A stretch of 62,585 nucleotides of DNA from a virus, in IMG/VR virus record IMGVR_UViG_3300031787_000115, positions 1 to 62,585 of that record; one strand, 5' to 3'. Below, piece after piece: positions 22,802 through 62,431 of this stretch. Below the pieces are notes generated by a model. The model made no database searches, was not told where the DNA came from, and was given only the letters and a program-made list of their open reading frames with translations. Made by a program: the position numbers and the translations under genes. Position 1 is the first letter of the stretch. Each line of letters begins with the position of its first letter.

Positions 22802-22911
22802 TGTTCTCAAGGTGTTGGGTGTGCCCCCGGCCCACGTCACGCGGCGCTGGGTTGTCGGGCATCACGCCCATCACCAGGAGTTTTCCGGCCTCACTCCACC
22901 AGGCGCCGGGC

Positions 22912-31303: not shown

Positions 31304-33994
31304 TCAGACTCCCGGCAGGGCCGCCGTGGGCGGCTGCACGTTGACGTTGACCAGCCACTCTTTGGTGGCCAGGGCGTCGAGGGAGTTGGCCAGCAGGCCC
31401 ATCTTCGTGCTGTTCTCCACTAGCGCCCCGGCATTGCGCACCGCCGCATCGGCGGCCTCCTTCTGGGCCCGGGCCAGCGCCAGCTGATTCTCCGCCTGCT
31501 GGAACTGCCGGGCGATGGCTGCCAGGCCAAACACCTGATCAGGGGTCTGGACCGGGGTTCCCTGCCGAATCAAGCCGCGATCAATCAGCGGTTGAATCTC
31601 AGCCCGCGCCAGTCGCAGCTGTTCGTTGACCAGTGCTGGGCTGAACACGTCCGCATTGCTGCGCACCACGTCGTTGAAGCTCCCCTGCGCATCGCGCAGC
31701 TGCTTCGCGGCATCAGTGGCGCCGTCCCGCAGGGCTCGGCCCACGTCCAGGCCGGCAACGGTCAGCTTCGCGGCGGCGGTCTCCGCATCGGTTCGGAACT
31801 TCGCCAGCTGATCGAGCGGGATTAGCTCCCCGCCGGCGCGACGATCCAGGGCATCCCGCAGGGCCCGGGCGGCACGCTCCGCATCTCGGGCGGCATCGCT
31901 GATGCCGGTGCCCAGGTCCCGCGTTTGTGCTGCCACGCGCCGCTGTGCCTCGCGCACCGCATCCGATGGCCGCAGCACGTCGATGGGGCTGCGGGCTCCG
32001 GTGATGGCATCGCTGCCCTGGCGGGCCAGGGATCGCAGGGTGTCGCCACGGGCGCGGAAGGTGTCGAGCACCTGGCGGGTGGTGGCGGCGGCTTCGCGGG
32101 TGGCCTTCTTCAGGTCCTCGCCCGCCTGCACGTACGCCAGCTCAACCTCACGGGCCGCCCTGGTCAGATTGCCTTCCAGCTGTGCAACGCGCGTGGCGCT
32201 CCGGCTACCCTCCAGGTTCGTGATGCCATTGCCCACGGGCTTGGCCATCTCGCGGTCCAGGTCCGCCTGGATCACCTTGACGGCACGGATCTTCTCCTCA
32301 ACGGCCAGCTTGTTCTCCAACTTCTGCCGCTCGACACCCTGCAGGGTGGCCAAGGTCTTGCTGGCCTCAATCCGCGAGCGGATGCCCTCTAGATCCAGGG
32401 CGTTCTTGGTGCGGATCTCTTGCAGGTCCGCAGCCTGCTTGGCAGCGTCCACTACTGGGTCCTCCTCCTGCTGCGGCGGCTTCGGTTTGACGGTCAGGCG
32501 GGGAGGCACAGGCGGGCCCTGCTGCGGCTGTGGCTTGCTGCCCCGGTCACGGATCTTTCCACCGATCACAAAGTCATAAGCAAGGCCCAGAGGGCCAAGG
32601 ATCTGCCTCAGGACCTGGTCCGATGCCAGGGGCGCCACCTTGCCGCCAAAGTCACCGATCTGCTTCAGGGGCAACAGTCCGATCAGCGTAGTGAGCCGGC
32701 TGATCACACCATCGATGTCTTCAATAAACGACTTAAAGTATGGCGAAACCACGCTCTCCAGTGTTGCTGCGAGGTTTGAAAAGCCGTTGCCGATCCGCTT
32801 CAACCCGCCTGCGATTGTACCGCTGTTGATGTCCATGGCCTTTGCTGCAGTACCTCCGGCTGTCGCCTGGTTTTCAAGGAACTGGTTTGTTTTCTTGAGC
32901 CCGTCGTTAATCGCTGGCTGCACAACTGCCTGGGCCTCTACCGACCCCAGCAACTGAAAGAGCCTGTCTGGCGTACCGCCGCCCTTCTGGCGAATCTCGT
33001 CCAGTAGCGCAACAAATCCCTTCGATCTGACAGCCGAAGCGCTGAAGTCAATTCCAAGTGATCGGGCTAGCCGGGATGCGTCGGCGGTTGGCTTGAGAAC
33101 ACTGGCGATAGCCTGTCGCAGGCCGGTAAATGTCTGCTGGACGGGAACGCTGTTATTCGTCGCATTGGCAATTAGAGCGTTCAGCTCCTCAATCGGGATT
33201 CCCGCGCCTGCTGCGACAGCGGCGATGTTACCGATCTCATTGACGTACTCCCGGACGGTGATCGTGCCGTCGTTTTGCGTCTGCACAAACTGGTCAACAA
33301 TCTTCCCGACGTCCTTGGTCGTCCTTCCATAGGCGTTCAGAACACCAGCTGCACCACGCGATACATCTTCAATGGTCGCGAATCCACCGACAGCACCGCG
33401 CACTGATGCGCGCAGGATTTCCACCTGCTCGGATGGCTTGGAGAATCCAGAGCTGGCAACATCATAAGCGGCTTTCAGGAGTTCAACCTGGCTGACGTTG
33501 TTGTTCAGCTCAACTGATAGGTTGCGGAGCCTGGACTTCAGGTCATCACTATCAACCCCCAGCGTGCGGACGGCCGCCGCCGCTTGATCGAGCTCTTTGA
33601 TCTGGGTGCCAACGTAGCTCGCAACTCCCAGGGTGGATGTCGCAACCCCGAGAGCACCTAACGCACTGGTCAGGGCCCCGTAGCCGGCCGCGAGCTGAAG
33701 CGCGGAAGATCCCGCGACGCTCAGCGCTTGGCCCTGTGCCGCCGTGGCGGCCGTGCTCGCTACCGTGGCAGCCCGGTAGGACTCAACGCCTCGTAGCAGT
33801 TCTGGCGGGATCGGCGGTGGCAGGGGAGGGCGAGCCGCCGACGGCTGCCGCTGCGCCTGGCTCGCCTGCTCGAACGCCTGCCGCACGATCGCCGCTGTGC
33901 GTTGCGCTTCCGTCTGCACCGCCAGCAGGCCCGCACGCAGCTGGGTGTCATCCACCGACACCGTCAACACCGCTGCGCCGAGCGCTTCCGCCAC
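31304..33994 (-). CDS. Tape measure protein
   Basis: An 896-residue protein with a TP901-type tape-measure core (about 90-350: DSDDLKSRLRNLSVELNNNV, GVLNAYGRTTKDVGKIVDQF, GTITVREYVNEIGNIAAVAA), one hydrophobic stretch and a long helical, Ala/Arg-rich C-terminal half. It sets tail length and is ejected with DNA. It starts at GTG. The core (about 32560-33640) has clearly lower G+C than both flanks. Confidence 0.88.
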   Translation of the reverse strand: MAEALGAAVLTVSVDDTQLRAGLLAVQTEAQRTAAIVRQAFEQASQAQRQPSAARPPLPPPIPPELLRGVESYRAATVASTAATAAQGQALSVAGSSALQLAAGYGALTSALGALGVATSTLGVASYVGTQIKELDQAAAAVRTLGVDSDDLKSRLRNLSVELNNNVSQVELLKAAYDVASSGFSKPSEQVEILRASVRGAVGGFATIEDVSRGAAGVLNAYGRTTKDVGKIVDQFVQTQNDGTITVREYVNEIGNIAAVAAGAGIPIEELNALIANATNNSVPVQQTFTGLRQAIASVLKPTADASRLARSLGIDFSASAVRSKGFVALLDEIRQKGGGTPDRLFQLLGSVEAQAVVQPAINDGLKKTNQFLENQATAGGTAAKAMDINSGTIAGGLKRIGNGFSNLAATLESVVSPYFKSFIEDIDGVISRLTTLIGLLPLKQIGDFGGKVAPLASDQVLRQILGPLGLAYDFVIGGKIRDRGSKPQPQQGPPVPPRLTVKPKPPQQEEDPVVDAAKQAADLQEIRTKNALDLEGIRSRIEASKTLATLQGVERQKLENKLAVEEKIRAVKVIQADLDREMAKPVGNGITNLEGSRSATRVAQLEGNLTRAAREVELAYVQAGEDLKKATREAAATTRQVLDTFRARGDTLRSLARQGSDAITGARSPIDVLRPSDAVREAQRRVAAQTRDLGTGISDAARDAERAARALRDALDRRAGGELIPLDQLAKFRTDAETAAAKLTVAGLDVGRALRDGATDAAKQLRDAQGSFNDVVRSNADVFSPALVNEQLRLARAEIQPLIDRGLIRQGTPVQTPDQVFGLAAIARQFQQAENQLALARAQKEAADAAVRNAGALVENSTKMGLLANSLDALATKEWLVNVNVQPPTAALPGV

Positions 33995-34924: not shown

Positions 34925-35401
34925 TCAGTCGGTTTCAGCGGTCCAGGTGTAGGCGCCGTAGCCGCTGAGGGTGAAGGTCACCTTGCTGACATCACCGGCC
35001 TGGATCTGTTCGCTGAAGTCGGTGACGAATGCCACTCCGGCATGGATCTCCGGGTTGCCGCTGGGATCCATCTCGGGGCTTTCGCGATACCACTGCACCG
35101 TCACGCCGGTAGCGGCATCCTTGGCGGCGGCCTTGAGGATCTTGTAGCCGGCATCCCGCAGGTCCAGGTTCATCTCCATCGGGATGGAGTAGCTCTGACC
35201 GGTCACCAGCGATGCGCTGAAGCCCTGGGGGGAGCCGTAGTCGCGAACTTCGGTGGTCTGGGACTGGGACTGGATGCCGGCATTCGTCAGGCTCAGCACC
35301 TCGGTCATGGTGCTGGAGCCGCTGGGTGCGGTCGAGGAGGTCGTCCCGGCCTTCACCCAGAATCGGTAGTTGAGTGCGTTGAAGAATGCGCCGGTAGCCA
35401 T
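34925..35401 (-). CDS. Major tail tube protein
   Basis: A 158-residue protein with a beta-sandwich pattern: FNALNYRFWVKAGTTSSTAP at the start, GQSYSIPMEMNLDLRDAGYK in the middle, and ending VAFVTDFSEQIQAGDVSKVT then FTLSGYGAYTW. It lies just before the tape measure block as in other siphophages. A CGGAAACCTGAGGG element precedes the ATG. Confidence 0.72.
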   Translation of the reverse strand: MATGAFFNALNYRFWVKAGTTSSTAPSGSSTMTEVLSLTNAGIQSQSQTTEVRDYGSPQGFSASLVTGQSYSIPMEMNLDLRDAGYKILKAAAKDAATGVTVQWYRESPEMDPSGNPEIHAGVAFVTDFSEQIQAGDVSKVTFTLSGYGAYTWTAETD

Positions 35402-35438: not shown

Positions 35439-35930
35439 TCAAGAGCGGATGATCCGCGCGCCGCTGTGGCCCCCATCGAAGCCGACGGCGGTGAGCACCT
35501 GCCCCTTGAGCTCATTGACGCGAGCGGCCAGCACGGCGCCCTCAGTGGCGGCACCACCAGCGCCGGAGCGGTAGCGCACGCGCAGCAGGTTGGTGTCCCA
35601 CTCCACCACGTCGGCCCGCTTGAGCTGCTGGTCACGGGTGGGGGTGGTGCCAGGGACCGGGCCCTCGTACTCCTCGGCGTTCCCCAGGTGCGCGGTGCCG
35701 CTGGCCACCTTGTCGGCCCAGATGCTTTCCAGGTCCTCGATCTCGTCAATCCAGCGCTTGACCTTGGCGACAGCGGCAGGTGACGCCTCGGCCATGAGGT
35801 TCATGGCGACCGTCAGCCGGTGCAGGTTCACCTCCGTGGCCGGAGCGTCCGCATAGGAGCGGATGGCATCCCGGTCATCGATCGGTGTGGTCCGCCAGAG
35901 GGCGTTGAGCGTGGGGAGGGGCAGCGCCAT
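35439..35930 (-). CDS. Head-tail connector
   Basis: A 163-residue, mainly helical protein (NLHRLTVAMNLMAEASPAAV, AKVKRWIDEIEDLESIWADK) of the size and composition of head-tail adaptor proteins. A CGGCAACCTGAGGC element precedes it. The assignment rests mostly on position. Confidence 0.55.
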   Translation of the reverse strand: MALPLPTLNALWRTTPIDDRDAIRSYADAPATEVNLHRLTVAMNLMAEASPAAVAKVKRWIDEIEDLESIWADKVASGTAHLGNAEEYEGPVPGTTPTRDQQLKRADVVEWDTNLLRVRYRSGAGGAATEGAVLAARVNELKGQVLTAVGFDGGHSGARIIRS

Positions 35931-36258: not shown

Positions 36259-37428
36259 TCAGGTGCTGGGTTGCTGCCGGTTGGCATTGCGAGCGGCTTG
36301 GCGCACGGCGGTGGTCAGATCAACGCCACCAGGGCCGTCGAGGGTGACCACCGGCTGCGCCGTCCGTGTCGTGCCAGGGGTGCGCCAGCGCTCATTCGCG
36401 GTGGGTGTCGCTGCAGCCCGCAGCAGCTCCGGCCGCACCTCGGTGGTGCTGCGGCCCCGGCTGGCGGCGTACTCGCGCCAGACGCGGGTCTGGGACTGGC
36501 GCCAGAAGGTGCCGTTGAGGGCGCGTTCGCGGGCGTCCGCGTCGGGGTTCTCCACGTCATCGGTGGCCAGCGGTTGCAACTGGCACCGGCAACGACGGTG
36601 CGCCGGCAGGCTCACCTGGTCGAGCCGGTAGATCCGTCCATGCCTGGCGACACAGTAGGCACAGGTCCGCTCGTCGCGGGTGGCGATCCAGCGGGCGTAC
36701 TGGTAGCCAGCGGCCCGGGCCAGGGTCTGCGTCGCCTGCTGCGCAGCTTGCTGCAGGTTGGTGCGGAGGTTGACGATCACCCGCTGCACCACCCCGGTCT
36801 GTGGCCGGCGGGCTTGGGGGCTGCGCCGGGCTCCAGCAGCAGGACGGCCACCAGCCCCCGGCCGTGGGGCCTGCGGAGCTGTGATGCCCACCAGCGCCCG
36901 CCGGGCCTCCTGCTCGAGCCGTCGGGTGCCCCAGCCCTGGGCAGCGGCATTGCTGGCCAGCACCACCAGCTGATCGCGGAAGGTCACGGCCTCTGATCGC
37001 ATCGCCACCACCGCAGCAGCCAGCAGGGCGCCGACGATCACCGGATCAGGCCCGGCGAACGGTGGCGGTGGTGTGGCGGGATCCTCGGCCCGTTGCTGCT
37101 GCTCAGCCGCCTTGGCCCCGGCGGTGATCGCCGCCTCCAGGTGCCGCCGGTAGCTGGTCTCCCAGGCCTGCAGCTCCCCATCGGTCAGGAACCGCTGGGC
37201 GGCGCGGATCACCTCCTGGTACCGGGCGGTCAGCTCAGCAGGGCTGACGCTGCTGGGGGCAGCCGCAGCCTCCTGGTAGCGCACGAACGCCCGGCGCAGC
37301 TGGTCCAGGACAGCGACGAGGGCGAGCCGGAGGGTGGTGTTCGCCTCCTTCTCGGCGCGGTCCTCGATCGCGGCCAGGGCATCGGCCGAATCCTCCGCCA
37401 GCTCCAGGGCCAGGGCGCCATCGGCCAC
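36259..37428 (-). CDS. Head morphogenesis protein (Mu gpF-like)
   Basis: A 389-residue protein with a helical N-terminal half and the characteristic minor-head motif ARWIATRDERTCAYCVARHG, continuing to LPAHRRCRCQLQP (about 235-275), whose Cys/His residues probably bind metal. Such proteins are needed early in head assembly. GTG start. Ala/Gln-rich linkers surround the core. Confidence 0.8.
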   Translation of the reverse strand: MADGALALELAEDSADALAAIEDRAEKEANTTLRLALVAVLDQLRRAFVRYQEAAAAPSSVSPAELTARYQEVIRAAQRFLTDGELQAWETSYRRHLEAAITAGAKAAEQQQRAEDPATPPPPFAGPDPVIVGALLAAAVVAMRSEAVTFRDQLVVLASNAAAQGWGTRRLEQEARRALVGITAPQAPRPGAGGRPAAGARRSPQARRPQTGVVQRVIVNLRTNLQQAAQQATQTLARAAGYQYARWIATRDERTCAYCVARHGRIYRLDQVSLPAHRRCRCQLQPLATDDVENPDADARERALNGTFWRQSQTRVWREYAASRGRSTTEVRPELLRAAATPTANERWRTPGTTRTAQPVVTLDGPGGVDLTTAVRQAARNANRQQPST

Positions 37429-37929: not shown

Positions 37930-38478
37930 TCAGCGACCCCGGCGGCGCTCCATCGCAGCCTTACTGCGGCGTGCGCCGGCGGCACTGCGGTTCTCCTCTG
38001 CAGTGCGGAAGGCACCCGATCGACGGCTGCGGCCGCTCAGCTCCTTGTAACGGGCCTTCGCCGGGTTGGCCGGTGCCTTGTCGGTGCGGGCCGGCTTGTT
38101 GCCCTTCTGGGCGGCGCGGCTAGTGGCGGCCTGGGACTTCTTGATCGCTCCGCTGGTGGCCGAGCGCTGAGCCGTGGTCATGCGACCACCCCGGCCCACG
38201 GTATTGGCGCGGGCGGGTCCGCTGATGCTGCCAGCGGCCCGCAGCCCTCCAGCTCGCTGCTGCGCGCCCTTCCCGCCAGTGAAACCCTTGGCCTTGACGC
38301 GACCACCCAGGCCGGTCGTGCCGGCGGCCTTCAGCTGAGCGGCGCGCGCGGTGTTGGCGGCACGGGTGCTGGCTGCCTTGCCGCCGCCGGACTTCCCTCC
38401 ACTGGATCGGCCGCCGCCGCCTCCACCACCACCGGATGAGAATCTGCCGCGGGAGTCGCGGGCGTACCGCCGTGCCAT
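37930..38478 (-). CDS. RDARGRF-tagged basic protein 2
   Basis: A 182-residue protein starting MARRYARDSRGRFSSGGGGG, then a Gly/Ser/Ala/Lys/Arg low-complexity body. It is strongly basic with almost no hydrophobic core, so probably disordered and DNA- or shell-associated. It has its own CGGAAACCTGGC element 22 nt before the ATG. Confidence 0.72.
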   Translation of the reverse strand: MARRYARDSRGRFSSGGGGGGGGRSSGGKSGGGKAASTRAANTARAAQLKAAGTTGLGGRVKAKGFTGGKGAQQRAGGLRAAGSISGPARANTVGRGGRMTTAQRSATSGAIKKSQAATSRAAQKGNKPARTDKAPANPAKARYKELSGRSRRSGAFRTAEENRSAAGARRSKAAMERRRGR

Positions 38479-38500
38479 GAGTCAGACCTGATGCCGTTAG

Positions 38501-38515
38501 GCCAGGTTTCCGCTC
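38501..38515 (-). promoter_or_regulatory. Start-associated element CGGAAACCTGGC
   Basis: The element precedes the ATG at 38478. Confidence 0.55.
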
Positions 38516-39644
38516 AGCGCTTGCGCCGCTTGCCAGGCCCCAGCCGTGGCTTGCTGCTGGCCAGCCTCGGGCGGCTGCCGCTGCCCTGCAGGGTGCCAGC
38601 CGGCCCGTCCCGGGTGATCGCGGCGATGTCGCGCAGGCGGCGGGCATCAGCCTGGGCCAGGGACCGCAGGCCCTCGCGCAGGGCCGTGGACACCTTGCCG
38701 GAGCGTGCGCCGGACTGCCCACCCGGGGGCGGCGGCAGGGTCTTGGCTCGCGAGGCGGTGGGGCTGGGGATCTTGATGCCGAAGTCCCGCTCGAGCTCGC
38801 GGTAGAAGCGGGCATCCGACTGGGCCAGGGCGCGGAGGTTGCCCCGCAGCACCTCGCTGATCTTCGGCGGGCGGGCACCTTCACCCGGGCGGCCCATCAC
38901 GGTGGTGGGTGACACCTCCGGCCCAGCCTTGCGGCCCTTGCCCCGCACCAACCTCCCCGCCGGGCTCTGCCCCAGCCGCTGACGGTTGGCCCGCTGTGCC
39001 CCGGCGGCATCGCGGTTGGCGCGGGTCAGTCCCCGGGCGGCGCTGGGGTTGAGGCCAGCGGCAGCAGCGCCACGGGCATCGCGCAGGCGACCCCGGGCCG
39101 CGAGTGTCCCGCGCTCGGGACGGGTCGGCCGTGCCGCGGCGGGAGTGGCGGCCGTGCGCCCCTTGCCCCGCTGGAAGCGACCCTGCACGCTCTGCCCCAG
39201 GCTCACCCGCTCGCGCTTGATCGCCATGCCGGTGTAGCGGCTCGCCCGGGTCACCGCACCCCGCTGTGACGGCGTGTCGTTCTCGCGGAGCTTGGCGCGG
39301 GATCGCCGCAGGCTGGAGCGGGCGGCCAGGGTGCCACCGCCGGTGGTGAGGGGTTCGCTGCGGGGCTTGCGGGCCTGCTCGCGGACCTTCACGGGATCAG
39401 GCCTCTGAGACGTGCGCCCCAGGTAGTTTTTGCGGCGTGCAGCAGCAGCAGCGCGGCCACCGGATGGGGTCTTGGGCACCACGCCAGGCAGCCGGCCGCC
39501 GGTGGGTGCCGCCTTGATCGTGGCCCCGCCACCGGCGCGGGATCGGCCGCCGGACATCAGCCGGGCGCCACGGCCACCGGTCTGGCCACTGAAGCCACCG
39601 GACGCGAACCGTCCGCGTGCGTCGCGGGTGTAGCGCCTTGCCAT
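38514..39644 (-). CDS. RDARGRF-tagged basic protein 3
   Basis: A 376-residue, very basic protein. The tag MARRYTRDARGRFASGG continues as FSGQTGGRGARLMSGG, nearly the same as in the plus-strand protein at 41111-41797 for about 50 residues, after which they diverge. Two C-terminal segments resemble each other (LRGNLRALAQSDARFYREL and LREGLRSLAQADARRLRDI), an internal duplication. Location between portal and head morphogenesis genes suggests a head role. Confidence 0.72.
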   Translation of the reverse strand: MARRYTRDARGRFASGGFSGQTGGRGARLMSGGRSRAGGGATIKAAPTGGRLPGVVPKTPSGGRAAAAARRKNYLGRTSQRPDPVKVREQARKPRSEPLTTGGGTLAARSSLRRSRAKLRENDTPSQRGAVTRASRYTGMAIKRERVSLGQSVQGRFQRGKGRTAATPAAARPTRPERGTLAARGRLRDARGAAAAGLNPSAARGLTRANRDAAGAQRANRQRLGQSPAGRLVRGKGRKAGPEVSPTTVMGRPGEGARPPKISEVLRGNLRALAQSDARFYRELERDFGIKIPSPTASRAKTLPPPPGGQSGARSGKVSTALREGLRSLAQADARRLRDIAAITRDGPAGTLQGSGSRPRLASSKPRLGPGKRRKR

Positions 39645-39662
39645 TGCCTGTGCCGTGCCTGT

Positions 39663-39680
39663 GCCTCAGGTTTCCGGCGG
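39663..39680 (-). promoter_or_regulatory. Start-associated element CGGAAACCTGAGGC
   Basis: A perfect minus-strand copy 18 nt before the ATG at 39644. It partly overlaps a plus-strand copy at 39678-39691. Confidence 0.6.
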
Positions 39681-39709
39681 CAACCTGTCGCAACCCTCGC
39701 GCTCCTGCG

Positions 39710-39799
39710 ATGTCCTGCCGTCAATGCGAGCGCTGCGGCGCACGGTGGATCAACGGCCTGCACTACTGGGCCACCGGATGGAGCAGGTTTCGCCGTTGA
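39710..39799 (+). pseudogene. Truncated copy of the zinc-binding gene at 41911
   Basis: The 29-residue frame MSCRQCERCGARWINGLHYW-ATG matches the first 23 residues of the 86-residue protein at 41911-42171 and then ends early. The upstream CGGCAACCTGTCGCAACC leader is also shared. It is a partial duplication with a lost 3' end. Confidence 0.7.
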
Positions 39800-39860
39800 C
39801 GGTGGCCTCGACGAGTTCGGTCTGCCGCTTGGGTGCGACGACGAAGGGGAGGTTTGGCAC
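39750..39860 (-). CDS. 36-residue frame, possible chaperone N-terminal remnant
   Basis: A GTG-started frame VPNLPFVVAPKRQTELVEAT preceded by a CGGAAACCTAGACC element (39881-39897). Its start resembles the N-terminus of the tail chaperone at 25419 (LPFLTPPAALR). It is antisense to the pseudogene. It is either a small gene or a decayed fragment. Confidence 0.35.
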   Translation of the reverse strand: MPNLPFVVAPKRQTELVEATVNGETCSIRWPSSAGR

Positions 39861-39908
39861 GGGGCCGGTGGTGGGGGTGGTCTAGGTTTCCGGCTGGGGG
39901 GGGGTGGG

Positions 39909-40631
39909 TTAGCGGCGGCGGCGAGGTTTGCGAGAGCCAACCTTTTCAGCAATACTTGCTTGCTTGCGAGCCACAGAAGTTAAATTGTAAGTGACGGTTT
40001 TTCTTGCATTATCGATTGAAACCCTGACGCCTTGCAGCTTGCCATAGCCAACGCCGGTCACCTTTTCAATCCGATCTCTAACTTTGTTGGCAGTGGCGAA
40101 CGGAAGCGGCTTTCCGGCCACCTTGGCAATGTAGCCTCCTAGTGTTTTTGCCTCAGTAGCCTCAACTTCTTTCTTTGAAAACTTGGATCGAAACACCGAT
40201 GCCGTGTTTCGTATGTCACTACCCCTAGCTTCATTGGCTTGAACCACTTGATCATTTGACAGCCATCTTTTCTTTCCCTTGGGCCCCATGTTTTGAGGCT
40301 GCAAACTTGCTCGCCCACCTTTAGCGGCCACCGCCTTCGCCCTCGCCCCACCCTTCACCTTCCCACCCTTCCCGACGGTCCCAGCGATTCGCCCCTTGAG
40401 CCGATCGAGCTGGGTGGCGCGTTGATTTCCTGCAGCAGTCTTCAGGCGGCCACCGCGAGCCGTGGCACCGCTGCCGCCCTGGCCGGTGATCTTGCCGGAG
40501 TTGTCGCGGGTGAGCCGATTGGTGCCGCGCTGCACACGCTTGGTGGCTGGCCTGCCGCCACGGCCGCCGCTGGAGCCACCACCACCACCAGAGAAGCGTC
40601 CGCGTGCATCGCGCTTGTAGGTCCGTGCCAT
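39909..40631 (-). CDS. RDARGRF-tagged basic protein 4
   Basis: A 240-residue protein. The tag MARTYKRDARGRFSGGGGGS and a basic Gly/Arg/Lys linker (to about residue 105) precede a more ordinary C-terminal domain (KKRWLSNDQVVQANEARGSD, then FRSKFSKKEVEATEAKTLGG). That domain is encoded by visibly A+T-richer DNA (about 39930-40310) than the tag, as if a foreign domain had been joined to it. A GGAATCCTGAGC element precedes the start. Confidence 0.75.
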   Translation of the reverse strand: MARTYKRDARGRFSGGGGGSSGGRGGRPATKRVQRGTNRLTRDNSGKITGQGGSGATARGGRLKTAAGNQRATQLDRLKGRIAGTVGKGGKVKGGARAKAVAAKGGRASLQPQNMGPKGKKRWLSNDQVVQANEARGSDIRNTASVFRSKFSKKEVEATEAKTLGGYIAKVAGKPLPFATANKVRDRIEKVTGVGYGKLQGVRVSIDNARKTVTYNLTSVARKQASIAEKVGSRKPRRRR

Positions 40632-40664
40632 GGGTCAGCCTGTGCCGTCAGCTCAGGATTCCGT

Positions 40665-41000
40665 TCAGCCGCTTTTCTGCCGTGTCCTGGCGCTGCGCCG
40701 TCGCTTGCCGGCTGACGCCACCGGCCGGACGGCGCCGTCTGAACCGCGGCGCAGCTTGGCCGGAGCCAACGGGCCGCCCGGCAGCCGGCGGGGTCGATCG
40801 CGCAGGATCCAGGGCCCCACCCCACCGATCTCCTCCTTGCCCTTGGGGGCATCGCGGTTGGCCATCCGACTGGCCTTGCGCTTGGCGATCGCGCCCTGGG
40901 GCGCCACGGTGCGGGCCAGGGCAGTCCTCATGGTGCGAGGTGCAGCGCTGACACCACCCGCGAACCGCCCGCTGGCATCTCGCCGGTAGGTCCGTGACAT
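40665..41000 (-). CDS. RDARGRF-tagged basic protein 5
   Basis: A 111-residue protein starting MSRTYRRDASGRFAGGVSAA, the shortest family member. The rest is basic (LRDRPRRLPGGPLAPAKLRR) with little hydrophobic content. A CGGAAACCTGGG element lies 21 nt before the ATG. Confidence 0.68.
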   Translation of the reverse strand: MSRTYRRDASGRFAGGVSAAPRTMRTALARTVAPQGAIAKRKASRMANRDAPKGKEEIGGVGPWILRDRPRRLPGGPLAPAKLRRGSDGAVRPVASAGKRRRSARTRQKSG

Positions 41001-41020
41001 GGGAAAGCCTGTGCCGTCAA

Positions 41021-41036
41021 CCCAGGTTTCCGCCGG
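41021..41036 (-). promoter_or_regulatory. Start-associated element CGGAAACCTGGG
   Basis: The leftward copy in the divergent 110-bp gap 41001-41110; the rightward copy is at 41078-41091. Confidence 0.6.
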
Positions 41037-41077
41037 CAGACAGCACGTTGCAGAGCTGAAGGACTGGATCATCAGGC

Positions 41078-41091
41078 AGGAAACCTGAGGC
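41078..41091 (+). promoter_or_regulatory. Start-associated element AGGAAACCTGAGGC
   Basis: The rightward copy, 19 nt before the ATG at 41111. It shows that the element follows gene orientation. Confidence 0.6.
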
Positions 41092-41110
41092 AAAGCTCAG
41101 ACGCACTCAG

Positions 41111-41797
41111 ATGGCCCGCAAGTACCGCCGTGACGCTCGCGGTCGTTTCGCTAGTGGGGGATACTCCGGCCAGACGGGCGGCAGGGGTGCGCGGCTGAAG
41201 GGCGGTGGCACCACCAGGGCAGGTGGTGGGGCGAAGATGACAGCGGCCAGGGTTGGCGGGACATTGAAGGGTCGAAAGTCTCTAGAGCCAACCAAAGAGC
41301 TTGCCCGTATGTCTCGGCAGGTTAAAAAGCTCAAGGGAATGGAGTTTGAACCTCCAAGTTCTAAGAATAACTTTTTGTCTAGAGGTGGCGCCGCGACAAA
41401 AGCACTAGCAAACATAGAGCCTGGCTTCAGGAGGCTTAGAAGCCAAGCGAGAGACAACAGCTTCAGGCAGCGGATGGCCATTTCAGAAGCAAATAAGGCT
41501 TTTGAGACTCAAAGGGCTGTTAGCACTGGGGAGCTGTCTGGTCAGAAAGTGAAGTTCAGGTCTACCGCTGCAGCTCGCGCTAGATACACGGGCCAAGTGC
41601 GCGATGTTTTATCAAGCAAGAAAACCTATGGCCAGAACAAGAGGAGCAGTGGAATCAGCAGGTCTGTTGTTGGCCAGCAATTCAATCTTTTAGGTCGATC
41701 AACACCTATCAAGTCAAGCCGCAGGACCGCCAGCAATTTCAACGCCAACACTTACAAGGTGCGCGGCGGAGGACGTAGCCGGCTGGCAAACCGTTAA
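41111..41797 (+). CDS. RDARGRF-tagged basic protein 6
   Basis: A 228-residue protein. MARKYRRDARGRFASGG and the extended GYSGQTGGRGARLKGGG block match protein 3, but synonymous positions differ, so the peptide is under selection. From about residue 55 the sequence is unique (GMEFEPPSSKNNFLSRGGAA, ending YKVRGGGRSRLANR) and the DNA becomes A+T-richer. It is on the opposite strand to most family members. Function unknown. Confidence 0.75.
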   Translation: MARKYRRDARGRFASGGYSGQTGGRGARLKGGGTTRAGGGAKMTAARVGGTLKGRKSLEPTKELARMSRQVKKLKGMEFEPPSSKNNFLSRGGAATKALANIEPGFRRLRSQARDNSFRQRMAISEANKAFETQRAVSTGELSGQKVKFRSTAAARARYTGQVRDVLSSKKTYGQNKRSSGISRSVVGQQFNLLGRSTPIKSSRRTASNFNANTYKVRGGGRSRLANR

Positions 41798-41812
41798 CAC
41801 TGCATCCTTTCC

Positions 41813-41914
41813 GTGGCCACCGACTTCTACGACTACGCCAACCTCCGCCTGCTGATCCCCCAGCCGGCAGCGATCCCCGGCAACCTGTCGCAACCTCTGC
41901 GCTCGCCCCCATGA
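41813..41914 (+). CDS. 33-residue frame overlapping the zinc-binding gene
   Basis: GTG-started frame VATDFYDYANLRLLIPQPAA, ending in an ATGA overlap with the gene at 41911. Composition is plausible and the coupling is typical of this genome. It may be a leader peptide or a remnant. Confidence 0.35.
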   Translation: MATDFYDYANLRLLIPQPAAIPGNLSQPLRSPP

Positions 41915-42171
41915 GCTGCCGGCAATGCGAGCGCTGCGGCGCCCGATGGTTGAACGGGCTCCACTACTGGGCCACCGGCAAGCCGGGATCAGACCTCGAT
42001 CTCGCGGGCCTGGTCTGCAACGTCGTGAAGGATCCCCGCCGCCAGAACCCACTCCGGGGCATGGAGGGGGGCGACGCCTGGGAGAAGCGGCGGGCCTTCA
42101 TCGACGGGGCCACCGACAGCATCCAGCGCTGCAGCAACCTCCCCGGGGCCGATCAGTCGTCCGCCAGCTGA
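41911..42171 (+). CDS. Small zinc-binding protein
   Basis: An 86-residue protein with CRQCERCGARW at the N-terminus, then HYWATGKPGSDLDLAGLVC, a cysteine pattern fitting a zinc site. I associate the type with cyanobacterial phages and prophages. A truncated copy lies at 39710. Its 3' end overlaps the convergent portal gene by 19 bases. Confidence 0.65.
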   Translation: MSCRQCERCGARWLNGLHYWATGKPGSDLDLAGLVCNVVKDPRRQNPLRGMEGGDAWEKRRAFIDGATDSIQRCSNLPGADQSSAS

Positions 42172-43673
42172 GCGGTCACCTGATCGCTGCCGGGTAGGTC
42201 GATGTCCTCCTCGGCCAGGTCTTCACCGCCCGGCACCGGCGGGGCCTGCTCCTCCGTGTCCTGCTGCAGCTGCCGGGACTCCTCGGCCAGCCGCTCCAGC
42301 TCCTCCTCCGCGCTGCTGACGGTGGTGAGCCGGCCACCCTTGATCAGCTCCTCGACGAAGCTGCGCCGGCTGATCTGCGTGTTGGCATCCATGGCCGCGA
42401 GCTGAGCCACGTCAGCGGCCTCCAGCGGCCGGTCGTAGATGGTGGGGCTCATCACGATGCCGGCGCCCTCCTCCAGTCGATCGCCGGTGAACAGAGCCCA
42501 GATCGCCATGGCCCGTTGCATGGCGCTGTTCTTCTGCCGCGCCAGGTTGGCGATGCTGGCCTGGGCCTGCGTCGCCTCCAGCCCCGCCTGCGTAGCCGTC
42601 TTGGCGCTGCTGCCCTGCAGGAAGCTGATCGTCGCCTGACGCATGGCCTCTTCCAGCTCGGTGATCTGCGTCCGCTGTTCCGCCAGGCTTGAGGCTGACG
42701 GCTCCTCGAAGCGGAACGTTCCACCGGGCGGCAGGTCCACGACGGTGTTCGGCCCCAGCACCAGCGGCTTGGCGCGGCTGCCGGGGGCGTCGGGGGCTAC
42801 GCCGGTGCGGACGGGAACCGGCATGGCGCACTTGTGAGTCTTCTCCGCCAGGTCGCTGCGCTTCTGCAGGTGCTCGATCGACATCAGCGCCAGCTGCCGC
42901 AGGGGCAGGTGCCCCTTGCCGAAGCCCACCATCTCGGCCGAGTACCAGATCAGCGGCGGGAACGGCAGGGGGTTGCGGGCGGCATCGAGGTAGGTGCCCT
43001 GCTCCAGCTCCCGGACCACAGCCTCGCCGTTGCTGGCCCGGTCGATCGTCACCAGCCGCCAGACCCCGGGGCCGTGGATGCGGTAGCGGGCCTGGGTCTT
43101 GACCCCGTAGGCCTCGTCATCCACCTCGGCCAGCTCCAGGACCGTGGCCTGCTGCGGCACCTCCACACCGTTGACGGTGGCCAGGCGCCAGTTCAGGACG
43201 TGGGAGCGCTGATGCAGCGTCAGGTAGGGGCGGCGGCCCTGGGCCAGCTCCTCGGCCCGAGTGGCGGCCTCTCCCGGCGGCATCTCGACGGTGATCAGGC
43301 AGCCCCCATCCCGCAGGGCCAGGGCATCGGCAGCAGCCCAGAACGCGCGGTGATCGTTGCCCTCCAGGTCGATGTCGTCGGCGAACTGCTCCCACGTCTC
43401 CGGTGGGTCGGCCAGCTGATAGCGGGTCAGGACGCCCGTGAATCCCTCGATCGCCTGGCGGTAGACGGGTCGATAGACGGCCCGGCCGGTCCTGGCCTTG
43501 TAGGCGTCGTCAGGTTCGCCGGGCTCCTTCGGCAGGTAGGAGGCGATCGCGCCCCGCAGGGCATCCCAGCAGTCGCCCGCAACCTTCAGATCCGCGTCGA
43601 TCTCGCGCAGCACCGGATGCCGATAGCTGGGGAGCTTCGGGTCATCCGTTGGGTCGTCAATGCGGACCGCCAC
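42153..43673 (-). CDS. Portal protein (DUF4055-like)
   Basis: A 506-residue protein. Motifs include VYRQAIEGFTGVLTRYQLAD, the ALALRDGGCLITVEMPPGEA core, PLPFPPLIWYSAEMVGFGKG, and a helical barrel-like region ISFLQGSSAKTATQAGLEAT typical of DUF4055 portals. The acidic C-terminus is common for the type. GTG start, after a CGGAAACCTCAATC element. It forms the DNA entry ring at one capsid vertex. Confidence 0.82.
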   Translation of the reverse strand: MAVRIDDPTDDPKLPSYRHPVLREIDADLKVAGDCWDALRGAIASYLPKEPGEPDDAYKARTGRAVYRPVYRQAIEGFTGVLTRYQLADPPETWEQFADDIDLEGNDHRAFWAAADALALRDGGCLITVEMPPGEAATRAEELAQGRRPYLTLHQRSHVLNWRLATVNGVEVPQQATVLELAEVDDEAYGVKTQARYRIHGPGVWRLVTIDRASNGEAVVRELEQGTYLDAARNPLPFPPLIWYSAEMVGFGKGHLPLRQLALMSIEHLQKRSDLAEKTHKCAMPVPVRTGVAPDAPGSRAKPLVLGPNTVVDLPPGGTFRFEEPSASSLAEQRTQITELEEAMRQATISFLQGSSAKTATQAGLEATQAQASIANLARQKNSAMQRAMAIWALFTGDRLEEGAGIVMSPTIYDRPLEAADVAQLAAMDANTQISRRSFVEELIKGGRLTTVSSAEEELERLAEESRQLQQDTEEQAPPVPGGEDLAEEDIDLPGSDQVTAQLADD

Positions 43674-43697: not shown

Positions 43698-43712
43698 TGA
43701 GGTTTCCGGCCT
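43698..43712 (-). promoter_or_regulatory. Start-associated element CGGAAACCTCAA
   Basis: The element lies 24 nt before the portal GTG, overlapping the end of the sigma factor gene. Confidence 0.55.
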
Positions 43713-44521
43713 CAGGCCAGCAGATCCGCAAACCCCATCTGTTCAGCCGCTGCAGTCAGTTGCGCCAGGCTGCGGCCGCGGGGGCGGCGCGGGGCCTTGG
43801 CGGTCTCGCTGGCCTGCACCTCGGCGGCCTTCGCCACCAGCAGCGGCAGGGAGCGCTGCCGGTACTCCGCCAGCGGCACCCCGTCCAGCAGGCGCCGGAC
43901 ACGGCCCAGCAGCTGCCGCATCGCCAGGGTGGGAAACGGCTTGCGGCGCGGGGCCTCCCACCAGGCAGCGATCAGGCCGGCATCGCAGGGGCGGAGGTTG
44001 TCCCAAGCGCGCTCCACCAGGGGCAGGACAGCGCCGATCAGGTCGATCTCCTGCTCGGCATCCACGTGCCGGCCCTGGGTCTCGTCGTTCAGCTCACTGG
44101 TGCCGGTCATCGCGGCCAGCATCTCGGCCAGTTCATCGGGCCCGCTCAGCCCGCAGGCTTCCGCCACCGCTTCCGGGGTCATGTCCGGGTCGGCCAGCAG
44201 CGCCCGGGCCCGCCCCCATATCTCGCGCCAGCGCATCGGGAAGCGGATGGTGTAGGCGCTGTCGCGGAAGAAGTGCAGGATCTCGCCGTGAATGAACGGG
44301 TAGGCGATCGTTGAGAGCTTGCAGCCGCGGGCGGGATCGAAGCGCCGGCAGCCCTTGATCAGCCCCACGAAGGCCAGCGCTTCGAGGTCGTCGTAGGCCA
44401 CGGCCCCGCCCGTTTTCCTGAAGTAGCCCCAGGCCACCTTGCGCGCCAGCTTCAGGTTCGCGGTGACGAGGGCCTCCGACTCGGCGGTGGGCGGGTAGCG
44501 CTTGAGCTCCTCGCTGCTCAG
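43712..44521 (-). CDS. Sigma-70 family factor
   Basis: About 269 residues with a sigma region 2 pattern: LVTANLKLARKVAWGYFRKT, DLEALAFVGLIKGCRRFDPA, KLSTIAYPFIHGEILHFFRD. Region 3/4-like helices follow (TPEAVAEACGLSGPDELAEM). The start is unresolved. The frame is open to an ATG at 44791, but that part overlaps a better gene. A CTG at 44521 overlaps the TGA of that gene. It could direct late transcription from its place beside the terminase. Confidence 0.75.
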   Translation of the reverse strand: MSSEELKRYPPTAESEALVTANLKLARKVAWGYFRKTGGAVAYDDLEALAFVGLIKGCRRFDPARGCKLSTIAYPFIHGEILHFFRDSAYTIRFPMRWREIWGRARALLADPDMTPEAVAEACGLSGPDELAEMLAAMTGTSELNDETQGRHVDAEQEIDLIGAVLPLVERAWDNLRPCDAGLIAAWWEAPRRKPFPTLAMRQLLGRVRRLLDGVPLAEYRQRSLPLLVAKAAEVQASETAKAPRRPRGRSLAQLTAAAEQMGFADLLA

Positions 44522-44733
44522 CCCTCCGGAACCAGGATCATCCCGCCGACCAGCAGCGTTCCGCCGGGTCCGCGCTCGGCGCCCCGCAGTGGATGCCACG
44601 CCCCGCCGTACCGGCACCCCTCCAGCATCCCGCTCCGCTCCCGCCAGTGCCCCGCGATCGGGCGGCCCTTCAGCTCCTCCTGGCTCACCTCCGCCAGCCT
44701 CAGGTAGCACTCGGACAGGGGCTGCTGGTTCAT
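44518..44733 (-). CDS. Small protein upstream of sigma factor
   Basis: A 71-residue protein (MNQQPLSECYLRLAEVSQEE) with good composition that ends GGMILVPEG. Its TGA overlaps the presumed sigma start. A CGGAAACAT element variant lies 24 nt upstream. It may be translated with the sigma factor or joined to it by a -1 frameshift. Confidence 0.6.
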   Translation of the reverse strand: MNQQPLSECYLRLAEVSQEELKGRPIAGHWRERSGMLEGCRYGGAWHPLRGAERGPGGTLLVGGMILVPEG

Positions 44734-44795
44734 CGCCGGTGGTCGCACACGGCGCCATGTTTCCGGGCTCAGCGGTGGTGGTGGTGGGCATGGGA

Positions 44796-46199
44796 TCAGG
44801 AGAGGCGGCGGTTGCGGGCCGCCGTGGCGGCGGTGCTCAGGCGCTGCTGCTGGTCAGCGAAGCGCTCGAAGGGGTCAGCCGGCGCAGCCTCCAGACCCCG
44901 GCCGTAGTGGACCGTCGAGACGCGCATAGGGCCGGTGCCGGCGACGTAGTTGACGGCCTGGGTCACGGAATCAGCCAGGTCGTCGTGCCCGTCATCCCGC
45001 ACGCCGAGCGACAGCAGCTGCTCCTCCACGGCCCGCAACCAGGGCGCGGCCTGCGGATGCCAGATCAGGCCCTGCTCATAGCTGGGGGCAGCGGCGTTGC
45101 CCCGGGCCGCCTTCCCGCCGAGGGGGTTGACCTGCACGATCTGGTAGCCGGCGGCTTCGCGCTTGAGCTGGTCAATGATCGCGCTGCCGTTGGCCTTGTC
45201 CTCGATCAGGAGCTCACGGAACTGCCAGCGGTCCCAAAGCGTGCGGATCAGGGCCAGGGTGTCCACATAGCCGATCTTCTGGTTCGCGGCCGACAGCAGG
45301 TGCATCCGGCTGCTGCTGCAGCCCCAGACGGTGATGCCCACATAGTCGTTGCTCTTGCCCTCCTTAAAGTTGGCGTCAACGCTGCACAGGACCCGCTGGG
45401 AGGCCAGCGGCGGCAGCTCAGCCGGGTCGTAGTAGCTGAACCACTCGCGGCGGAAGATGGCGGCACCGCGCAGGTCCACCACCTCGGCCAGGTACTCCTG
45501 CGCGAACAGGTCTGGCCCCAGGGTTCGGCGGGCGGCCTCGATTTCAGCTTGCGCAACCCGGCCGCCGTCGGCGGTGGTGAAGCGGAAGCCGCTGCCCTCT
45601 GGGTCCTCCCCGGTCTCGGCAGCCCGCAGGGCATCAGTAAACCAGTTCTCACCGGCGGGGGTTGTGATAAACCAGGCCGGGCCCTGCTGATCGCTCAGGG
45701 CCGGCCGCAGGACCATCGTCCACGCGTCCTGCCGCACGTAGGCGGCCTCATCGACCACGCAGCCGGAGAGGCTCACGCCGCGCAACCGGTCGGGATCCTC
45801 GGCGCCCTTAAGGTAGATCCTGGCGCCGTTGATCAGCTCGATCGACAGCTCCCCCTCGTTCTTGCTGGCCAGGGCCGCCGGAGGCACGGTGCGCTTAAGG
45901 TCCACCCAGGCGATCTGCTTCGCCATGCGATAGGTGGCGGTCACGTAGTAGAACAACCCACCGGGGGTGGCCAGGGCCCAGGTCAGCAGGCGGGTGATCG
46001 ACAAAAAGGTCTTCCCGAACCGCCTGCCGGCCATCAGGTACTTGAACCGGGCGGGGTTGTCGTAGACGCTGCGCTGCGGGTCGCTGAGGGTGGCACTGAG
46101 GCTGCTGATGTAGTGGCTGATGTCCACCAGCTCCGGCTGCGCCCCGAGCTGCAGCAGATCCAGGGCGGCGAGCCTGGCACCGGGATCAGCTACCCGCAT
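44796..46199 (-). CDS. terL: Terminase large subunit
   Basis: A 467-residue packaging motor. The ATPase domain has a Walker A-type LMAGRRFGKTFLS and Walker B GCVVDEAAY with the catalytic Glu. The nuclease domain has CSVDANFKEGKSNDYVGITV and a C-terminal DDGHDDLADSVTQA. ATG at 46199 lies 14 bases inside terS. It translocates DNA into the prohead and cuts concatemers. Confidence 0.92.
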   Translation of the reverse strand: MRVADPGARLAALDLLQLGAQPELVDISHYISSLSATLSDPQRSVYDNPARFKYLMAGRRFGKTFLSITRLLTWALATPGGLFYYVTATYRMAKQIAWVDLKRTVPPAALASKNEGELSIELINGARIYLKGAEDPDRLRGVSLSGCVVDEAAYVRQDAWTMVLRPALSDQQGPAWFITTPAGENWFTDALRAAETGEDPEGSGFRFTTADGGRVAQAEIEAARRTLGPDLFAQEYLAEVVDLRGAAIFRREWFSYYDPAELPPLASQRVLCSVDANFKEGKSNDYVGITVWGCSSSRMHLLSAANQKIGYVDTLALIRTLWDRWQFRELLIEDKANGSAIIDQLKREAAGYQIVQVNPLGGKAARGNAAAPSYEQGLIWHPQAAPWLRAVEEQLLSLGVRDDGHDDLADSVTQAVNYVAGTGPMRVSTVHYGRGLEAAPADPFERFADQQQRLSTAATAARNRRLS

Positions 46200-46656
46200 C
46201 AGTGGGCTCCTGCGGCTCAACACCGAGACCGCGAGCCCTGAGGTTCAGCTGCAGGATGCGCTCCTGCTCCGGGGGGAGACCCGCAGCGATGATCGCGTCC
46301 ATCACGGCGGTCATGGTGCGTTTCTCAGCTCGGCGATCAGCGGCGGCGTCGGACCACTCCTCACGGAAGAAGGGGCTATGTGTCAGCAGCCAGGCCGCAT
46401 CCTTGGCCTCACCGGCTGCGATCTTGCGGGTAAGGGCGACTTCCGATCGCAGGATGGCCTCATGAATGGCCGTTGAAAATTGCTGCTGCAGCGGGTCTGC
46501 ATCAGGTGATCGACCATCACGCATCCATCGGCGGATGGTTTGCTCTGTGACCCCAACAGCGCGACCGATGGCCACGTAACTGGGGCAGTGTTCGGCTACC
46601 TCAACCGCAGCAGCGATGAGGTCAGGAGTGAGGGTGCTGGGTCTGCCGGCAGGCAC
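46186..46656 (-). CDS. terS: Terminase small subunit
   Basis: A 156-residue protein with an N-terminal HTH (CPSYVAIGRAVGVTEQTIRR) that would recognise the packaging site, then a helical oligomerisation core (AILRSEVALTRKIAAGEAKD). A GTG start at 46656 was chosen because the longer frame would read back through the promoter at 46683-46713. It overlaps terL. Confidence 0.8.
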   Translation of the reverse strand: MPAGRPSTLTPDLIAAAVEVAEHCPSYVAIGRAVGVTEQTIRRWMRDGRSPDADPLQQQFSTAIHEAILRSEVALTRKIAAGEAKDAAWLLTHSPFFREEWSDAAADRRAEKRTMTAVMDAIIAAGLPPEQERILQLNLRARGLGVEPQEPTDAGS

Positions 46657-46682
46657 GTCACGCGCACGGCTGGACGCGGGGG

Positions 46683-46713
46683 AGTCTAATCCCCTTGCTG
46701 CCGATTGGCAACC
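46683..46713 (-). promoter_or_regulatory. Terminase promoter with operator-like palindrome
   Basis: Minus strand TTGCCA and TAGACT are 17 nt apart, with GGTTGCCAATCGGCAGC across the -35. It is the only full operator-promoter found in the virion region and lies 27 nt before terS. Confidence 0.65.
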
Positions 46714-47075
46714 GAAGCAGCGGCGGCCTGCTCCAGCAGCCAGGTGCCGAAGCCGACGTGTGTGAAGACAGCGTGGGTGCCCGGCGGGGTGGGATAGGAC
46801 TGCGCCCACCACTCGCGGAAGCGGGCCTCGATGGCGGCGGGGGTTGGGGTGCTCATGGCTGAGGTTTCCGGTTGATGGCTGCCGATGGCCTCCAGCCAGT
46901 CGGCGGTGTCGCTGTGGCCGTGGCGCTGGCGGAGCAGGGCGGCCAGTTCGTGGGCGACGGCGGTGGACAGCAGCAGGCAGTCCTCACAGGCACGAGTGCA
47001 GGGGTTGAGGTCGGTGTTGGCGGCGCAGAGGGCCAGGGCCAGGCGGATGCGTTGCTGGGTGGTTTGCTCGGTCAT
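46686..47075 (-). CDS. Hypothetical protein, possibly two genes
   Basis: A 129-residue frame. The N-terminal part has four cysteines (LCAANTDLNPCTRACEDCLL). The C-terminal part, from an ATG at 46856, reads MSTPTPAAIEARFREWWAQS and is directly preceded by a CGGAAACCTCAGCC element. So a second start, or a fusion of two once separate genes, is likely. Its ATG overlaps the PP-loop gene stop. Function unknown. Confidence 0.6.
   Translation of the reverse strand: MTEQTTQQRIRLALALCAANTDLNPCTRACEDCLLLSTAVAHELAALLRQRHGHSDTADWLEAIGSHQPETSAMSTPTPAAIEARFREWWAQSYPTPPGTHAVFTHVGFGTWLLEQAAAASVANRQQGD
46857..46871 (-). promoter_or_regulatory. Start-associated element inside a reading frame
   Basis: CGGAAACCTCAGCC stands immediately before an internal in-frame ATG at 46856. 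Confidence 0.5.
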
Positions 47076-47875
47076 GTCATGCAATAGCCAGACTCACAAC
47101 CGTCCTGCTCGTCGATCCATTCGGGAGACAGACCCAGCTGGTTGGGGATTGCTTGGTTGATCGGCAGGCCCTTGCGAGCGCCAACGCCGCTGATGAACAC
47201 AGAATCGCGGCCCAGCTCCTGTCGCTTGCGGTTCAGATGCTGCTCCAGCAGGGTGACCGCCAGGAACAGATCAGGGCGCTCCTGGCGCATGGCCACCCAC
47301 TGATCGGTCGTCTTGTACGGGCAGAACCAGCAGCTACTCTTGGGCGGCTGGGGTAGGCCAGCGGCAGCAACGATGCGCAGGCATTCGCTGCGGTCAACGC
47401 CCAGCTCAATCAGCGGATAGGCGCTGACGTAGCCGTCACTTTCGCGACTTGGCGTGGCCCGATGCGGCTCGTCGGTGCTGATGCCCTTCCCCAGCGTGCA
47501 GCCGGGGGCGTTGCGCTTGATCCAACGGGCGATCGGCTTGATCTTGAACTCAGTGGTGCAGTTCCGCCGACCAGGCGCACCGTTGCTCATCCGCACCGGG
47601 ATGTTGATGGCCCGGACGGGACGCTGCAGATCCTCAGACAGATCAACTGGCGTGCCATCGCGGCGACAGCGCTGAACGTCAACCCACTCAATCCCGCTTG
47701 CGGCGGCATAAGGCTTAAGCACTTCGGCCACATAGCGCAATGTGCGCGGGTCTTCAGCCTTATCGCCGACGTTGGCAAAGATGAACGTGCGGTAAGGGAT
47801 GCGGCCTTGTGCGGCCAGCACCAGAGCGGCTGTGGATTGAACGCCGCCGCCGCAGCTAAAGATGCACTTGCTCAT
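47072..47875 (-). CDS. PP-loop ATPase of the PAPS-reductase family
   Basis: A 267-residue protein with the adenylation P-loop FSCGGGVQSTAALVL at the start, an NCTTEFKIKPIARWIK segment and a C-terminal SSCWFCPYKTTDQW pair of cysteines. Phages often carry such CysH-like proteins. Some relatives act in sulfur modification of DNA or tRNA. The actual substrate is not known here. It starts a chain of coupled early/middle genes and overlaps both neighbours by ATGA. Confidence 0.75.
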   Translation of the reverse strand: MSKCIFSCGGGVQSTAALVLAAQGRIPYRTFIFANVGDKAEDPRTLRYVAEVLKPYAAASGIEWVDVQRCRRDGTPVDLSEDLQRPVRAINIPVRMSNGAPGRRNCTTEFKIKPIARWIKRNAPGCTLGKGISTDEPHRATPSRESDGYVSAYPLIELGVDRSECLRIVAAAGLPQPPKSSCWFCPYKTTDQWVAMRQERPDLFLAVTLLEQHLNRKRQELGRDSVFISGVGARKGLPINQAIPNQLGLSPEWIDEQDGCESGYCMT

Positions 47876-48048
47876 GCCACCCTCCCCCACTGCCCCTTCG
47901 CCTGCCGGCCAGCGAGTACGTGCTGCGCCCAGCGATCGGCGCGGGCCAGCAGCCAGCGGGTGAGGCGGATGGCGACGGGTTTGACCAGTCCCTCCATCAG
48001 GCACAGGGCGGCGAAGGCATCGAGGGCGACGTGGAGATCAGAGGGCAT
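47872..48048 (-). CDS. 58-residue hypothetical protein
   Basis: The frame begins MPSDLHVALDAFAALCLMEG and continues VKPVAIRLTRWLLARADRW. It resembles a short protein type I associate with cyanobacterial phages. ATGA overlap with the PP-loop gene supports it. One amphipathic or membrane-facing helix is likely. Confidence 0.6.
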   Translation of the reverse strand: MPSDLHVALDAFAALCLMEGLVKPVAIRLTRWLLARADRWAQHVLAGRQAKGQWGRVA

Positions 48049-62378: not shown

Positions 62379-62401
62379 GGTGGTGTTGGTGGTGCCGGCT
62401 G

Positions 62402-62431
62402 ATCCTAGTGGTGCTGCTTCCATTTGGAAAC
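62402..62431 (-). promoter_or_regulatory. Early promoter (second copy)
   Basis: The redundant copy of the promoter at 64-93, here upstream of the complete gene at 62378. Confidence 0.6.

Follow-up and report, generated by a model that had tools for sequence, protein, structure and literature searches.

The stretch analyzed here (the window) is the entire virus record IMGVR_UViG_3300031787_000115 of 62,585 bases, which is probably a complete circular assembly because it carries a 247-base direct terminal repeat (1-247 = 62339-62585, 99%). Between its portal gene and the gene for a MuF-type minor head protein lie five genes, on both strands and with a truncated phrog_484 copy among them, which share with a sixth gene elsewhere in the window an N-terminal peptide beginning M(A/S)RxYxRDxxGRF[A/S]. 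We call this peptide the tag, the remainder of each protein its body, and each gene by its lower coordinate (12374, 37930, 38514, 39909, 40665 and 41111; Table 1). A reading of the window from the sequence alone had pointed out this arrangement, which we find as it was described, and had proposed that the peptide sends variable cargo to one place, possibly the prohead interior. We report that tag genes form a large family in related phages, that they occupy fixed slots of the head operon, that they share a leader element with other late genes and that the bodies behind the tag are exchanged as cassettes.

The tag and the bodies behind it

The family was gathered by four scans of IMG/VR with the tag or tagged proteins as queries, the first of which returned no matches. 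There are at least 227 distinct tagged proteins in that collection, with several per phage; tag genes numbered between one and five in a scored record, and at least one was present in 35 of the 42 records searched as a whole. The core of the tag, YxRDxxGRF[A/S], is often followed by xGxGATARGGRLxTAxGNxRATQT or xGQTGGRGARL, and many proteins have a second copy of the core, NRLTRDNxGRITSVGG, in between. Hence, the tag opens a longer N-terminal module, part of which is duplicated. Across ten codons of the tag the proportions of nonsynonymous (pN) and synonymous (pS) differences are 0.14 and 0.71 for the six genes of the window, and 0.22 and 0.81 for all distinct tags of the family, values that speak for conservation of the peptide under protein-level selection. 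Nor is the pattern a matter of chance, since the fetched loci contain 171 distinct Y.RD..G[RK]F motifs directly behind a start codon as against only 8 other RD..G[RK]F motifs, 3 of which are tags missed by our filter. Similar RD..GRFA stretches had been thought to occur near the N-termini of some phage head proteins; we found none at the N-terminus of 113 MuF, 162 portal and 13 major-tail matches, and rejected an origin of the tag in head proteins.

The initial impression that the six bodies differ completely was too strong. The 37930 protein belongs to a stable family of tag plus body, with 51-64% identity across ~140 residues in 7 other phages, and that of 40665, whose start was listed as a TTG 31 codons too far upstream, has a tagged homologue in another phage (L243:6876+) with 79% identity across 80 residues; for both proteins the tagged orthologues extend over the full length. 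Parts of others recur: a module of 39909 is found in other tagged proteins, the C-terminal module of 38514 (LRxxLRxLAQxDARxxR) is seen in other tagged proteins at differing positions, and the body core of 12374 (NKIxxSPRRxxxxExA...KFxSDxxRxxELxRRGF) is found again in other tagged proteins, in one case inside a protein of 532 residues. The recurrence of the 12374 core and the 38514 module shows that modules move as well. The C-terminal body of 39909 is A+T-rich and has no known relatives. Two further details of the sequence-only reading were borne out. First, 38514 and 41111 share about 50 N-terminal residues written with different synonymous codons; these are 76% identical with a pN of 0.24 and a pS of 0.65, and so do not stem from recent copying. 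Second, the second halves of 39909 and 41111 have a GC content of 0.49 and 0.52, as opposed to 0.69-0.71 in their tags. Peptide linkers such as GTIAKPKGLKPGAI and SGLRPG recur between body modules (e.g. L178:8195-10630+ and L086:8001-9482+), and linkers like GTIxKPKGLKPGA gave 53 exact-type matches as against 0 in shuffled sequences. We considered them as protease cut sites, and nothing supports cleavage.

Closely related loci show how bodies come to differ. L031 and L071 share an upstream block of 82% identity which reaches through the first 116 nt of a tag gene, and are 98.1% identical over 1.2 kb from the end of that gene onward; the bodies in between, of 713 and 580 nt respectively, have no similarity by blastn. 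Likewise, L036 matches L049, L061 and L078 at 90-92% identity across the upstream gene and over the initial two thirds of its own second tag gene; the C-termini differ, and identity of ~91-93% resumes at or soon after the stop codon. Such constant tags and flanks (82-98% identical) around unrelated bodies indicate a real exchange of cassettes, which is new here. Constant inheritance of tag and body together had been named as an observation that would count against the cargo idea: bodies of the 37930 type do travel with their tag, and others are swapped.

Outside the IMG/VR records the family proved elusive. The portal of the window has its nearest matches in the cyanobacterial siphoviruses S-CRES1-3, S-CBS2 and PSS2 (37-41% identity), for which reason the host is likely a cyanobacterium; the tag had no match near the portal or in the whole records of S-CBS2, S-CRES1 and PSS2, the closest isolates by portal. 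Searches of INPHARED and PLSDB by tblastn with two proteins of the window, a composite tag, and the HExxH and ADP-ribosyltransferase (ART) bodies discussed below found no match, with the proviso that weak matches may be masked by the low-complexity filter of BLAST. When 84,980 bacterial genomes were scanned twice with tag alignments, pattern matches came up but no confirmed relative, and so neither a prophage carrier nor a host was found. At the settings used nearly all PHROGs were without a match to the tag proteins, and searches with PHROG, NCBIfam and Pfam gave almost no matches for tagged proteins.

Operon position, leader element and composition

With the portal gene as the reference, the tag genes fall into a recurring order, namely terminase large subunit (TerL), sigma factor, portal, tag, MuF, tag, p35439 (a conserved unnamed late gene), tag and major tail; in a second lineage a tag gene directly precedes the portal gene. 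Among the 135 distinct tag genes in loci with a portal gene, 115 lie on the portal strand. The slot between portal and MuF holds 33 distinct tag genes on that strand, and the slot between MuF and p35439 holds 25 on it and 15 on the opposite one. In other records longer than 40 kb, a phage has all of its tag genes inside a span of ~17 kb. Tag genes thus occupy fixed slots of the head operon, an observation that is new here. They are accessory to it, since related records such as L034, L057 and L013 keep portal, MuF and p35439 and are without a tag gene. Two of these tagless records (L034:16774-17097, minus strand; L057:16119-16331, minus strand) encode a small, basic, cysteine-free protein ending in KPKPAKGGGMKAK; its gene is antisense and adjoins p35439, in a slot used by tag genes elsewhere.

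In 134 of 200 tag genes a short element, GGAAANCT, stands 26-43 nt (peak 28-31, about 29) ahead of the ATG, as against 2.8 predicted from its density. In the relatives it likewise precedes portal (76/95), p35439 (45/52) and phrog_484 (4/4); it was seen before only 7 of 78 MuF genes and before none of 57 TerL and 81 sigma factor genes. Within the window, 13 of its 16 copies precede the starts of open reading frames (ORFs), including those for the terminase small subunit (TerS), portal, major tail, scaffold and major head protein. Copies at 46869, 43707, 35432, 27327, 25448, 23756, 22886, 21065 and 15225 (minus strand) and 41079 (plus strand) stand at a near-fixed distance before virion genes. 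The leaders of 39909 and 12374 depart from the others by one mismatch each at the same spacing. No -35-like partner is visible. We take the element for this phage group's late promoter or leader; it may be a late promoter read by the sigma factor that the phage itself encodes. Since tag, portal and other late genes have the element in common, it places the tag genes in the virion regulon. This sharing of a leader element between tag and late genes is new here.

The tagged proteins are uniform in composition. All have an isoelectric point (pI) of 11-12, with on average 24% K+R and 5% D+E, and a net charge of about +20 per 100 residues. Cysteine occurs 5 times in 74,253 residues (227 proteins among the matches listed), confined to 3 proteins, at least two of which we suspect of being frameshifted or truncated; the portal, TerL and MuF proteins of the same phages contain 0.8-1.0%. 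Because tape measure (0 in 2733 residues) and scaffold (0 in 265) are also free of cysteine, the bias may be a general mark of virion-internal proteins.

A few of the bodies look enzymatic. About 12-14 distinct tagged proteins have a metallopeptidase-like HExxH domain, in which both histidines, the glutamate and a downstream Glu are invariant across 11 aligned proteins, and a J domain scores above the Pfam cut-off with its HPD motif intact. The case for an ADP-ribosyltransferase is weak: two proteins (L156 and L171) combine an HExxH candidate with an ART-like region that has YHGT and GVYxSS motifs and matches to PARP and ART-PolyVal below the Pfam cut-offs, and the PARP family gave one weak match over 42 records. 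The AlphaFold model of the L156 protein is poor (mean predicted local distance difference test score, pLDDT, of 46; fair only at residues 360-430), its top Foldseek matches are small metallopeptidases (selecase, jannalysin), none significant, and a profile search of the PDB returned nothing. Hence, these assignments rest on motifs.

The tag as a proposed head address and competing explanations

Taken together, late expression, a place in the head operon, a constant N-terminus with exchangeable bodies, a charge counter to that of DNA and enzyme-like cargo lead us to consider it moderately probable that the tag is a transferable address by which basic, ejectable internal proteins are directed to the head. 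The tag genes would be expressed late, under the control element that they have in common with portal and further virion genes; the tag would bind a component of the growing head, be it scaffold, MuF or portal, and thereby carry each basic body into the prohead, where its positive charge would let it sit within the packaged DNA. The bodies would then be ejected with the DNA as early-acting proteins, perhaps anti-defence factors, host-modifying enzymes or DNA protectors, and recombination behind the constant tag would furnish each phage with a personal cargo set. The conserved tag, the exchange of bodies, the operon position, the leader element and some of the bodies fit the earlier idea of variable cargo in the virion; the prohead interior as its destination stays a conjecture.

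There are close parallels in known cargo systems, and the statement of the sequence-only reading that none of this form had been described was mistaken, since the internal proteins of phage T4 share the plan. There, ipI, ipII and ipIII carry a capsid targeting sequence (CTS), vary greatly between phages as sets, and include counter-defence cargo (PMC3012670). As in the tagged proteins, a short conserved N-terminal peptide stands before differing, basic bodies, and cysteine is absent. However, ipII and ipIII start with MKTYQEFIAEA, which does not resemble MARxYxRDxxGRF; the CTS is removed by the prohead protease, and for the tag no cleavage site was found, nor a protease among the ORFs of the window scanned; the ip bodies have a net charge of +2 to +5 per 100 residues against about +20; and the ip genes are neighbors of e and tRNA genes rather than part of the head operon. 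By analogy, therefore, the tag system appears to work like the CTS system, on the same plan, without being a member of it. Phage polyvalent proteins offer a second comparison: these combine 2-15 domains per polypeptide, among them early-acting effectors such as ART and metallopeptidase domains, come from genes in the neighborhood of MuF and other virion genes, and are thought to be packaged (PMC5512222). Tag genes share this context with late virion genes, but most tagged proteins are separate, small, mostly without known domains and united by one tag; the two proteins with ART-like and HExxH candidates, both below Pfam cut-offs, come nearest to several effector domains in one polypeptide. The MuF polymorphic toxins of temperate phages also join a constant virion-linked N-terminus to variable effector C-termini (PMC5576092), as the tagged proteins join theirs; however, the latter have no match to the MuF domain, and MuF is a separate neighboring gene. 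Finally, the giant Salmonella phage SPN3US has a large head-packaged protein set that enters the host; it differs in that a prohead protease cleaves eight of its head proteins, and the published abstracts report no shared short tag of this type (PMC5694885, PMC7411985).

Several points weigh against the tag being a head address. The opposite strand carries 20 of the 135 tag genes in loci with a portal gene, and 12374, which adjoins the integrase gene, is an exception to the placement in the head operon. The bodies encoded in the window have no recognized Pfam or PHROG domain, and no tag-bearing isolate was found in the collections searched. Unlike in T4, a scan of part of the window's ORFs with PHROGs turned up no prohead protease, nor was a cleavage motif found; a tagged HExxH body could itself act as the protease. 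Moreover, part of the cysteine depletion could stem from a bias in sequence, cysteine being scarce in tape measure, scaffold and further virion proteins as well, and all that matters could be the basic, low-complexity composition itself, in which case the tag would have another role.

This last objection leads to the main alternative, which we regard as unlikely: the proteins might be protamine-like DNA binders that condense DNA by charge alone before or during packaging, the tag being part of a DNA- or scaffold-binding surface and no sorting signal, and the bodies varying since only charge matters. Every member has the pI and the net charge that this would call for, and disorder predominates in an AlphaFold model of 38514, with isolated helices. 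But condensation has no need of folded enzyme-like bodies such as the HExxH and J domains, and if charge alone counted there would be no use for a constant stretch of 13 residues at the start, or for a tag much more conserved than the remainder. Still more doubtful is that the proteins act as late effectors in the producing cell, with the tag sending them to the membrane, the nucleoid or a virion factory instead of the virion. Late expression and variable bodies would appear identical, and the metallopeptidase, J-domain and ART-like bodies could be aimed at the current host; yet the strict placement beside portal and MuF, along with the extreme charge and cysteine bias, better suits packaged proteins, and we noticed neither a signal peptide nor a membrane segment in the tag. 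We give little credence to tail-borne ejection proteins, whose tag would attach to the tail tube or the tape measure so that the cargo travels in the tail. The tape-measure homologues are the other large proteins devoid of cysteine, and an ORF of 1060 codons in one locus (L118) has RDATGRFIKAG at residue 83, but it is portal, MuF and p35439 that the tag genes adjoin; most of them lie upstream of the major tail gene, and the tape measure is not their neighbor. A role of the conserved start at the level of DNA or RNA, in recombination or as an enhancer of translation, with an incidental peptide, would suit the adjoining leader element and the exchange breakpoints within genes behind the tag, but is very improbable and largely refuted by codon usage, the synonymous sites of the tag being near saturation (pS 0.81) with the protein kept (pN 0.22).

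We would tentatively go further and suggest, at a level of confidence somewhat short of even, that the tag represents a second capsid-address system, which evolved independently in siphovirus-like phages that have no recognized head protease. Here, one peptide with a duplicable core (RDxxGRF...GATARGGRL) would load exchangeable, cysteine-free and highly basic effectors, some of them enzymes, and each cargo gene would bring its own copy of the late element, making for a plug-in arsenal. If the tag is indeed a head address, a peptide of 13-20 residues would provide a simple sequence rule for listing the virion-borne proteins, mostly unannotated, of many uncultured aquatic phages, and with it a catalogue of candidates for counter-defence proteins and for enzymes that modify the host; it would also show that the T4 solution of a constant address with exchangeable cargo arose more than once. 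The tag could, moreover, serve as a compact means of bringing proteins into particles derived from phages. Should the address idea fail, cassette exchange and a fixed late leader would still be testable features of a phage group without described equivalents in the collections searched.

Feature map and other observations

Table 1. Features of the window in order of coordinates (blank cells, no remark)
Feature	Coordinates	Strand	Remarks
Integrase	11005-12342	+	
Variant leader of 12374	12345-12352	+	GGCAACCT
Tag gene 12374	12374-12871	+	165 aa; 32 nt past integrase gene, apart from head genes
Major head protein	21884-22840	-	phrog_212
Head scaffolding protein	22912-23709	-	phrog_206; candidate partner of the tag
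Tape measure	31304-33994	-	
Major tail	34925-35401	-	
p35439	35439-35930	-	conserved unnamed late gene; borders further tag slots in relatives
MuF-type minor head protein	36259-37428	-	downstream border of main tag slot
Tag gene 37930	37930-38478	-	182 aa
Leader of 37930	38504-38511	-	GGAAACCT
Tag gene 38514	38514-39644	-	376 aa; tag runs on as SGQTGGRGARL
Leader of 38514	39668-39675	-	GGAAACCT
Truncated phrog_484 copy	39710-39799	+	87% identical over first 68 nt, different beyond
Tag gene 39909	39909-40631	-	240 aa; second module NRLTRDNSGKITGQGGSGATARGGRL after tag
Variant leader of 39909	40655-40662	-	GGAATCCT
Tag gene 40665	40665-41000	-	111 aa from ATG at 41000
Leader of 40665	41024-41031	-	GGAAACCT
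Leader of 41111	41079-41086	+	GGAAACCT; 32 nt before ATG
Tag gene 41111	41111-41797	+	228 aa; A+T-rich body
phrog_484 gene, full copy	41911-42171	+	function unknown
Portal protein	42153-43673	-	phrog_145, DUF4055; upstream border of main tag slot
Leader before portal gene	43700-43707	-	GGAAACCT
Phage RNA polymerase sigma factor	43712-44791	-	candidate reader of leader element
TerL	44796-46223	-	
TerS	46186-46812	-	

Tail fibre genes, too, lie on the minus strand of the window, and a search with PADLOC gave no match. The phrog_484 product has 5 cysteines in 86 aa; in two relatives (L148 and L096) its gene is antisense, between major tail and tape measure. On the minus strand, a PAPS-reductase-like gene (phrog_424; 47072-48004) adjoins the terminase genes, and a further gene (16181-17410) encodes a protein with five 47-residue repeats at a spacing of 141 nt. 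Partly self-complementary units of CCCCTCCCCCAAACGGGGG stand in tandem at 6976-7066.

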